A stretch of DNA of 64,000 nucleotides. Origin: Alphaproteobacteria bacterium (GTDB taxonomy: Bacteria; Pseudomonadota; Alphaproteobacteria; Acetobacterales; Acetobacteraceae). Below are positions 7,615-49,043 of this stretch, piece by piece. Positions within the stretch are counted from its first letter, which is position 1. Every line of letters starts with the position of its first letter. A model generated the notes under the pieces. The model was not told where the DNA came from, searched no databases, and worked only from the letters and a program-made list of their open reading frames with translations. The stretch spans positions 1-64,000 of the forward strand of contig VGDM01000016.1 in the NCBI GenBank assembly GCA_016869715.1. Reading direction: 5' to 3'. A program made the position numbers and the translations under genes.

Positions 7615-7785
7615 ATGGCTGAAATCGTCAACCTGAAGCGTGCCCGAAAGGCTAAGGCGCGCGATGCTGCGGCCGCCAACGCCGCCGAAAACCGCGCCAC
7701 ACACGGCCAGACCAAGGCCGAACGCGCGCGGCTGGCGTTAGAGCATGTTGCGTTCACATGGGTTCACGCAACCCGCTCTAGATGA
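7615..7785 (+). CDS. DUF4169-type small protein with C-terminus replaced by a repeat element
   Basis: The first 41 residues (AEIVNLKRARKAKARD ... NRATHGQTKAERARL) match small basic DUF4169 proteins of alphaproteobacteria, whose function is unknown. From codon 42 (TTA at 7738) the reading frame is made of the dispersed repeat at 7739-7843, which gives a foreign tail ending VHATRSR. The usual family C-terminus is not found downstream. ATG 7615 is chosen over the upstream TTG/ATG because the family starts with MAEIVNL. The product may still be made but is altered. Confidence 0.65.
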   Translation: MAEIVNLKRARKAKARDAAAANAAENRATHGQTKAERARLALEHVAFTWVHATRSR

Positions 7786-7843
7786 TTGTTTTTCGAGCAT
7801 CTTTGCACCTTCAGATTTTCCATCTGAAAGTGATCTGCTCTAG
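7739..7843. repeat. Structured dispersed repeat, copy A (about 105 bp)
   Basis: The element starts TAGAGC and ends GCTCTAG. Its first half folds as TAGAGC..GTTGCGT / ACGCAAC..GCTCTA and its second half as CAC.TTCAGAT / ATCTGAA.GTG, joined by a conserved GTTTTTCGAGCATCTT linker. Copy B at 48938-49043 is about 80% identical by eye, with changes that keep the stems. It encodes no protein and resembles non-autonomous palindromic elements (REP/MITE-like). Here it has entered the 3' part of the DUF4169 gene. Confidence 0.8.
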
Positions 7844-7902
7844 AAAAAGCCAAGCTGTGCGCCATCACCGACGGCGCGAAGAAAGGGGACTGAAGGGCTA
7901 CT

Positions 7903-47171: not shown

Positions 47172-47690
47172 ATGCGCGTGATCGGCCTCGCCGGCTGGAG
47201 CGGGGCCGGCAAAACTACCTTGATGGTGAAATTGATCCCCTGCCTGATTGGGCGGGGGATTGACATTTCTACGCTGAAACATGCGCATCATCGCTTTGAT
47301 GTGGATGTGCCGGGGAAGGATTCCTGGCAGCACCGCCAGGCCGGCGCGCAGCAGGTGATGGTGGCGTCAGGCGCGCGCTGGGCGCTGATGACGGAACTCC
47401 GCAGCGCCACTGAGCCACGCCTGCCGGAATTGCTCGCGCGCATGAATGCGGTTGATTTGGTGATAGTGGAAGGTTTTAAGCGCGACGCGCACCCAAAGAT
47501 AGAAGTGCATCGCGTTGTCAATGCCAAGCCCTGGATGCACCCGGATATGCCCGGCATTGTGGCGGTAGCATCCGACACGCTGCCCCCTTATGATCTGCCC
47601 CGCGCCGGGCTTGATGAGGTCGAAGCCATTGCCGATCTGGTGCTGGCCCATGCGCGCGTGATCAAGGACATTCCCTGGACGGAGGGGTAA
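47172..47690 (+). CDS. mobB: Molybdopterin-guanine dinucleotide biosynthesis protein B
   Basis: A 172-residue GTP-binding P-loop protein (GLAGWSGAGKTTLMVKLIPCL) with THK-like LKHAHHRFDVDVPGKDS and the VDLVIVEGFKRDAHPKIEV block. MobB helps MobA with cofactor handover. It overlaps moeA by 1 nt (TAATG). Its place after the fdh structural genes supports a shared transcript for enzyme and cofactor supply. Confidence 0.93.
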   Translation: MRVIGLAGWSGAGKTTLMVKLIPCLIGRGIDISTLKHAHHRFDVDVPGKDSWQHRQAGAQQVMVASGARWALMTELRSATEPRLPELLARMNAVDLVIVEGFKRDAHPKIEVHRVVNAKPWMHPDMPGIVAVASDTLPPYDLPRAGLDEVEAIADLVLAHARVIKDIPWTEG

Positions 47691-48940
47691 TGGCGCAGCT
47701 TTCGGATGATTGCTTCGCCTTCGGCGGCGCGCTGATGGCGGTGGAAGAAGCCCAGGCGGTGATCCTGGAGCGCGTCCCGCCCGCCACCGGCACCGAGATG
47801 GTGCCACTCGCCGCCGCGCGCGGGCGTGTGCTGGCCGCACCGCTGATGGCGCCCTTGCCCCTACCGCCCTTCTTCAATGCTGCCGTGGATGGCTGGGCAT
47901 TTCGCCATGCAGATTTGCTGCCTGGCGCCGAGACCGCGCTCACGGAGGTTGGCCGCATTGCCGCCGGACAAGCGCCATCGCGCGCTGTGGCCCCAGGTGA
48001 AGCGATGCGCGTTTTCACCGGCGCCCCCATGCCGCCCGGCGCCGATACCGCTGTGATGCAGGAGGATGTACGGCGCCAGGATACGACGATTTTCGTCCCC
48101 CCCGGCTTGAAGCTTGGGGCCAATGCGCGGCCTGCCGGTGAGGATATCGCCGCCGGGGCGCTTGCCTTGCCTGAGGGCAAAATTCTCGGCCCCGCCGAGA
48201 TCGGGCTGGCAGCCGCCTTGGGTCAGGCGCGGGTCTCGGTGCGCCCGCGCCTTAAGGTCGGTGTGTTTTCCTCCGGCGATGAATTGGCAAGCCCGGGCAG
48301 CGCGCTAGGCCCCGCGCAAAGCTATGACAGCAACCGCTTCACGCTACTGGCGTTATTGGCCGCGCTGCCGGTGGTAGCGCATGATCTTGGCATCCTGCCC
48401 GATGACAGCGCCGCCACCGAAGCCGCTTTGCATGAAGCCGCCGCCGACCATGATCTGCTGCTGACCAGCGGTGGGGTCTCAACGGGCGAGGAAGACCATG
48501 TGCGCGCCGCGATTGAAGCCGGCGGGCGCCTGGTGTTCTGGCGCCTGGCGGTGAAGCCTGGCCGCCCGGCGGCGATGGGCCTTGTGCGCGGTACGCCGGT
48601 GCTGGGCCTGCCGGGCAATCCCGTCGCCGCGGTGGTGACGTTTCTGCACCTGGCGCGGCCTTTGGTGCTGCGCCTGGCGGGAGCCTTGCCCGAGGCCCTG
48701 CCGCGCTTTGTGGCGGAAGCTGACTTCACCTATCGCAAAAAGGCTGGGCGGCGCGAATATGTGCGCGTAAGCTTGCAAGCCAAGGCTGGTCTGCCGCGCG
48801 CGCGAAAGTTTGCGCGCGAAGGGGCGGGCTTGCTGACATCACTCACGCAATCCGATGCCTTTGTGGAATTGGAGGAGGATGTGACGGCCGTCAGCCCCGG
48901 TGACAAGGTCGTGGTGCTGCCCTTTCGGGCGATATTCTAG
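47690..48940 (+). CDS. moeA: Molybdopterin molybdotransferase
   Basis: MoeA inserts molybdate into adenylylated molybdopterin. The 416-residue protein contains ALMAPLPLPPFFNAAVDGWAFRH, RVFTGAPMPPGADTAVMQED, the central FSSGDELASPGSALGPAQSYDSN and GGVSTGEEDHV motifs. The stop codon TAG at 48938-48940 is the first three bases of the dispersed repeat copy B, so the C-terminus may have been shaped by its insertion. Confidence 0.94.
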   Translation: MAQLSDDCFAFGGALMAVEEAQAVILERVPPATGTEMVPLAAARGRVLAAPLMAPLPLPPFFNAAVDGWAFRHADLLPGAETALTEVGRIAAGQAPSRAVAPGEAMRVFTGAPMPPGADTAVMQEDVRRQDTTIFVPPGLKLGANARPAGEDIAAGALALPEGKILGPAEIGLAAALGQARVSVRPRLKVGVFSSGDELASPGSALGPAQSYDSNRFTLLALLAALPVVAHDLGILPDDSAATEAALHEAAADHDLLLTSGGVSTGEEDHVRAAIEAGGRLVFWRLAVKPGRPAAMGLVRGTPVLGLPGNPVAAVVTFLHLARPLVLRLAGALPEALPRFVAEADFTYRKKAGRREYVRVSLQAKAGLPRARKFAREGAGLLTSLTQSDAFVELEEDVTAVSPGDKVVVLPFRAIF

Positions 48941-49043
48941 AGCGTGCTGCGTTCACACGGATTCGCGCAACTCGCTCCACCTCGTTGTTTTTCGAGCATC
49001 TTCACACGTTGAGACGATTCCATCTGAACGTGTTCTGCTCTAG
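48938..49043. repeat. Structured dispersed repeat, copy B (about 106 bp)
   Basis: Begins TAGAGC with its first TAG acting as the moeA stop codon, and ends GCTCTAG. The parts GCTGCGTTCACA..ATTCGCGCAAC, GTTGTTTTTCGAGCATCTTCA and ACGTT.AGA..TCTGAACGT align with copy A at 7739-7843. In both copies, the paired bases of the second hairpin change together (CTTCAGAT/ATCTGAAAG against CGTTGAGA/TCTGAACG). It fills most of the gap to the convergent Rieske gene and could also act as a bidirectional 3' structure. Confidence 0.8.

Follow-up and report, generated by a model that had tools for sequence, protein, structure and literature searches.

The closest described elements to the repeat analyzed here are the CIR, the CcrM-associated intergenic repeats of Caulobacter (Chen and Shapiro 2003, via Delihas 2007, PMC2229807). 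A CIR is about 110 bp long and consists of two hairpin arms and a linker, with GANTC at the loop of one arm and TA at its ends; this anatomy was described for repeats of Caulobacter and Brucella, and the elements are multicopy and abundant in alphaproteobacteria (PMC2229807). According to the same review, CIR are possibly regulatory and were not found inside genes, and the question of their duplication or mobility was left unresolved. A 2024 review describes them as strictly intergenic, and the term 'IS630' is absent from its text (PMC10969869). Related palindromic repeats of 103-106 bp, Bru-RS1 and Bru-RS2, are found in Brucella (PMC10800456, PMC2267715), and rhizobia carry intergenic repeats termed RIME (PMC2573895). 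In Streptococcus pneumoniae, RUP is a 107-bp MITE for which mobilisation by IS630 was proposed from shared ends and TA targets (PMC2229807, PMC3049150), and BOX of S. pneumoniae and QMITE2 of Coxiella were reported to encode stop codons or the C-terminus at gene ends (PMC3049150, PMC5896051). No literature linking CIR, RIME or Bru-RS to IS630 was found, a weak negative as the founding papers lay outside the search.

We analyzed two copies of a repeat, A and B, in a window of 64,000 nucleotides (the whole stretch of DNA under analysis), which corresponds to contig C16 of a draft genome assembled into 196 contigs with a total of 3.55 Mb. The closest named relatives of its moeA gene are from 'Roseomonas sp.' and other MAGs, and Neoroseomonas species are more distant. 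Our reading, to which we give a probability of about 0.75, is that both copies belong to a CIR-type MITE family, non-coding, two-armed and about 105 bp long, with an IS630-family transposase as its probable mover. IS630 transposases are of the Tc1/mariner type and duplicate TA. By comparison, each of the two copies was inserted at a TA inside a YTAR target, with TA now on both sides; the element would be moved in trans by an IS630-family transposase with similar transposon ends, as the ends described below suggest. The parts of the two copies are as follows.

7739-7842, plus strand: copy A, CIR-type element (outer TAs at 7739-7740 and 7841-7842)
7739-7780, plus strand: first hairpin of copy A, the TAGAGC...GCTCTA arm (from the fold and the family pair counts)
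7781-7794, plus strand: linker joining the arms of copy A (from the fold; class relatives show a similar linker)
7795-7840, plus strand: second hairpin of copy A, without GANTC (from the fold)
48938-49042, plus strand: copy B, CIR-type element (outer TAs at 48938-48939 and 49041-49042)
48994-49040, plus strand: second hairpin region of copy B, with GATTC (GANTC) at 49016-49020 (from the fold)

Both copies lie where the original prediction had placed them, except that their ends had been set at 7843 and 49043; the final G at each of these positions is flanking DNA and, outer TAs included, copy A measures 104 bp and copy B 105 bp. They are 81% identical across 105 bp (blastn). A model search of the window scored them at 121.5 and 112.1 bits, respectively, and the single remaining match at E <= 1 (16 bits, E 0.05) overlaps copy A. 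An Rfam scan of the whole window returned no family at gathering score. The two copies had also been predicted to fold into the same two hairpins with compensating base changes. Copy A, folded as a single sequence, does form both hairpins whichever strand is taken (z -4.2 and -6.5). Copy B by itself fails to adopt them cleanly: on the plus strand its minimum-energy fold pairs the two ends in a single long stem (z -2.5), and on the minus strand the second hairpin is the only clean one (z -3.3). The compensating changes were borne out for the family in a structure alignment of 29 copies (26 from the own genome and 3 from relatives). In the two-hairpin structure 91.6% of cells were paired, which 0 of 500 shuffles reached, and 9 of 32 pairs were altered on both sides, a number reached by 1 of 500 shuffles, which ignore relatedness.

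The genes at the two sites were compared with their counterparts in relatives. At copy A, the gene is a DUF4169 frame.

7615-7785, plus strand: DUF4169 frame in its present reading, 56 aa, with its last codons and TGA stop inside copy A
7843-7893, plus strand: displaced native C-terminal codons of DUF4169 and their TGA, 3' of the insertion (from orthologue comparison)

The frame matches positions 1-40 of 55 of the Pfam profile PF13770. Copy A gives it its final codons and its stop (TGA), as had been predicted, the codons numbering 14 and not 15. The C-terminus, thought to have been replaced, was displaced and not lost, and its native codons persist beyond the element. The nearest orthologue (genome G007) reads CTTTAGAAAAAGCC and the copy A locus reads GTTAGAGC[element]GCTCTAGAAAAAGCC; from this comparison, 15 native C-terminal residues have been displaced and a TA has been repeated, although the repeat can also be read as TAG or TAGA. 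As the left TA of copy A is preceded by T and the right TA by C, the duplication comprises TA and not the entire YTAR. The insert is absent from all nine DUF4169 orthologues of genus genomes that were aligned to copy A, and on sequence comparison copy A at DUF4169 is a true gene disruption. At two of the genus loci (L035, G028:C4; L039, G005:C16), a second partial DUF4169-like match lies ~900 bp downstream of the first.

Copy B lies at the end of moeA.

47690-48940, plus strand: moeA, 416 aa, with MoeA_N, MoCF_biosynth and MoeA_C domains (from the frame and Pfam domains)
48938-48940, plus strand: moeA stop TAG, consisting of the target TA and the first G of copy B (from the sequence and the relatives' empty sites)

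The first TAG of copy B is indeed the moeA stop. The idea that the element brings a new in-frame stop, which holds at DUF4169, does not apply here: the insertion point is the TA of the stop codon, so that the stop was regenerated and not newly supplied and, since this TA followed by the first G of the element reads TAG, the protein is unchanged. In 14 of the 15 relatives shown, moeA ends with TAA or TGA without an element at the stop. In one relative (L121) the moeA stop is a TAG provided by an element in the opposite orientation, and this insertion is an independent event. The distance from the stop TA to the next gene is 36 nt in relative L061 and 37 nt in the window with the element set aside. 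A third case of insertion concerns the stop of the gene preceding a gene that we take to be mobB-like: it is occupied in three relatives (L066, L068, L069), and the same stop is without the element in seven relatives and in the window. Empty alleles therefore exist at both DUF4169 and moeA, the comparison that the original prediction had proposed, and together with the copies they support its view that the element is palindromic, non-autonomous and mobile and that gene ends tolerate it.

The target was characterized on 91 copies with distinct flanks, 29 from the own genome and 62 from four genus genomes. Matches with fewer than 90 aligned bases and two copies with repeated flanks were left out, and 60 genus regions were drawn from the best-scoring rows of the genus model search, a choice that favours well-preserved copies. 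The base before the TA is C in 53 copies, T in 29, A in 6 and G in 3 (C or T in 82 of 91), and the base after it is G in 58, A in 29, C in 2 and T in 2 (A or G in 87 of 91). YTAR is present at 78 of the 91 insertions compared to 364 of 3547 neighbouring TA (p 3e-60). A terminal TA is found on the left in 82 copies, on the right in 70 and on both sides in 63. The target duplication had been expected to be CTAG; it is TA, duplicated within a YTAR target.

The position of the insertions relative to genes was then read from reconstructed empty sites. A stop was counted if it ended an open frame of at least 100 codons with coding-like third-position bias, and 4 of the 91 copies were left out for lack of a terminal TA or because of a short flank. 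The TA of a TAA or TAG stop is occupied by 35 of 87 copies; 12 of the remaining copies lie inside long frames and 40 elsewhere. As controls in the same flanks, a stop is hit by 113 of 2349 TA, by 36 of 246 YTAR and by 36 of 169 YTAR outside long frames, and even relative to this last set the excess persists (odds 3.2, p 1e-4, with crude gene calls). When copies were grouped by alignable flanks, 89 copies formed 88 groups, and stops accounted for 35 of 86. The YTAR target, together with the loss of insertions inside genes, explains much of the excess over all TA; the roughly threefold excess that remains could be inflated by crude gene calling or be explained by selection. Both ends of the element read TA-GAGC inward as an imperfect inverted repeat, so that an insertion into a TAA or TAG stop restores TAG whichever end the gene enters; among the 35 stop copies, genes enter the first end in 18, the other end in 12 and both ends in 5. 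By remaking TAG with its own G, the element would do little harm to such a gene. Outside stops it can truncate a frame, as the DUF4169 gene illustrates.

Selection on position is the core of a different account, in which the element is kept for a function, either as a structure at 3' ends that acts as terminator or mRNA stabiliser, or as a CcrM-methylated regulatory site. We consider this unlikely. It would fit the stop-codon excess over the YTAR controls and the conservation of the arms with compensatory changes, and there is a recurrent candidate site, as GANTC occupies one and the same loop in 45 of the 62 copies of the four genus genomes and in 15 of the 26 class loci, compared to 3% in shuffles. 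A RAMA domain, presumably as found in CcrM, is encoded in 27 of 28 genus genomes, the own genome included. However, a terminator scan detected no terminator-like sites near copy A or copy B and, as genes enter either end of the element, the bidirectional 3' structure (terminator) that had been envisaged finds no support. The loop GANTC is present in copy B, whose first arm holds another GATTC at 48960-48964, but in only 6 of 29 own copies, copy A not being one of them; copy A breaks a gene, and neither copy is found in relatives. The loop GANTC is missing from most own copies, 23 of the 29, although the RAMA domain is still encoded.

The repeat forms a dispersed family. With copy A as query, blastn found 38 places in the own genome at E < 1e-14, some of them partial, and the covariance model gave at least 53 matches; these counts, which had been suggested as a check, reveal a multicopy family and not only two copies. 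A few further matches in the own genome sit at contig ends. The element is present in all 29 genus genomes sampled, with at least 3 to at least 129 covariance-model matches each. In a survey of the class, with filters stricter than those of the genus survey, the element was detected in 38 of 387 genomes and thereby in 31 of the 264 genera sampled. Twenty genomes or plasmids were reached through loci, and 14 of them match the element, with 133 matches in N. soli, 134 in Paracraurococcus ruber and 79 in Crenalkalicoccus roseus; there were none in two Aurantimonas, two Bradyrhizobium, Chelatococcus albus and Rhodovarius crocodyli. The partial relatives that blast turned up on plasmids were confined to Sinorhizobium americanum and Komagataeibacter. 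In 27 relatives the elements keep the order YTAGAGC, arm, A-rich linker, arm, GCTCTA, with diverged arms and somewhat variable ends.

Two loci (L298, G005:C56:249810-250018; L318, G028:C1, ~93325) carry two elements head to tail with one shared TA; elements can nest at their ends because the terminal CTAG of the element is itself a YTAR target. In the own genome, a half element (L028, C81:4642-4708) is broken at an internal CTAG by an apparent insertion-sequence end, an arrangement like that reported for IS711 in Bru-RS1.

The link to IS630 comes from the ends. The left- and right-end consensuses of the element agree at 17 of 23 positions, and the left-end consensus was compared with the ends of IS630 copies. 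Matches to PF13358 (IS630-type) occur in 17 of 28 genus genomes; they are absent from the other 11, including G002, G009 and G021, which have at least 16-25 elements. The IS630 ends of G001 and G003, which are identical, match the element at 19 of 23 positions, those of G041 and G007 at 17, those of G008, G010 and a second G001 type at 15, and those of G005 and G042 at 13. In the G041 end, all differences from the element end are transitions. The top four ends (G001, G003, G041, G007) outscore all 2321 TA sites of the window, even with the TAGAGC prefix granted to these, and in the flanks of the copies only five 23-mers reach the G041 score, themselves evident ends of neighbouring elements; these five (>20 bits) were left out of the end-score background. 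The similarity search that led to the ends of G001, G003, G007 and G008 started from the G041 end, so that these four do not count as independent tests.

The best-matching IS630 ends belong to relics or to a rearranged 1447-bp derivative. In the latter (L238:1381-2827, G041:C14), inverted copies of one IS630 end flank an unrelated open frame. In G001 and G003 (L389, G001:C26; L383, G003:C31), the short IS630 terminus with the best element-end match is adjoined by an rve-type 342-aa transposase frame. This frame was considered as the autonomous partner and rejected, its best Pfam match being rve with DDE_3 below cut-off, and the IS630 end beside it is for the same reason read as a relic. Across the class, 20 element-bearing genomes were chosen, of which 16 gave PF13358 matches and 4 gave none. 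In at least 8 of those with matches, an IS630 copy is adjoined by a YTAGAGC end, and in four (G071, G119, G396, G402) both YTAGAGC ends are paired around IS630. The G071 type, with an intact transposase, occurs at six near-identical places. The 196-contig draft of the own genome yielded no intact IS630 whose ends match. Its single PF13358 match is a broken remnant with an end matching at 11 of 23 positions, so that the copies there may now be immobile; a past or unassembled IS630 partner is possible. The case for IS630 as judged from these ends is good but circumstantial.

Two other movers were weighed. A YTAR target alone cannot decide between movers, since IS711 of Brucella also duplicates TA at YTAR and was moreover found inserted in Bru-RS1 (PMC3163539). 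The element might then be mobile through an IS5-family (IS427/IS711-type) transposase with a YTAR target and TA duplication, a proposal that we regard as distinctly improbable. We take IS711 to be an IS5-type element, and PF13340 (IS5-type) has matches in 23 of the 29 genus genomes, where two copies, L183 and L184, have TAGAGC at their ends. Against it, the six IS5 ends tested, among which L183 was not included, were within background (best p 0.016), and PF13340 is absent from the own genome as well as from G002, G009, G021, G040 and G043, five genomes that carry at least 16-64 elements. Being short, palindromic and dispersed, the repeats could also be taken for REP-type elements spread by a REP-associated tyrosine transposase (RAYT); this can practically be set aside, as a single one of the 28 genus genomes, other than the own genome, contains PF01797 (RAYT), whilst the E. 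coli and Caulobacter control genomes match. Furthermore, insertion into YTAR with a TA on either side is not known as a feature of REP.

Combined, the comparisons argue for copies A and B being a real and mobile CIR-type MITE, ordinary in kind, in which the mobility link would be new and the stop-codon pattern that had drawn the original prediction is clearly accounted for. A testable mechanism of transposition for CIR-type elements follows from the duplicated TA, the empty alleles and the IS630-like ends. The stop-codon rule is a simple reason for their gathering at gene ends, and a caution against inferring regulation from position. With about even odds, the same may hold for CIR-type repeats across Alphaproteobacteria: these would be IS630-driven MITEs whose TA-GAGC ends make TAA and TAG stops self-repairing landing sites in both orientations, which would explain repeats at gene 3' ends class-wide.

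Compared to known systems, the present element is like CIR, by description and not by letters, in its length, its two arms and linker, the loop GANTC at the level of the family and its TA termini. It is unlike CIR as described in that copy A lies inside a gene frame, many copies are at stops, empty sites exist and there is a link to IS630; most copies of the own genome also lack the loop GANTC. We take 'intergenic only' as a reported tendency of CIR and not as a defining trait, and copy A departs from it. RIME and Bru-RS, likened by description, may be of the same broad kind, and a Sinorhizobium plasmid carries a copy of the present family. RUP shares the proposed mechanism and is a precedent for an IS630-driven MITE; compared by description, it differs in having an end-to-end stem without two arms and a linker, and it belongs to another phylum. 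Relative to BOX and QMITE2, the mechanism by which the present element would end a gene is explicit: the target TA and the G of the element make TAG at either end.
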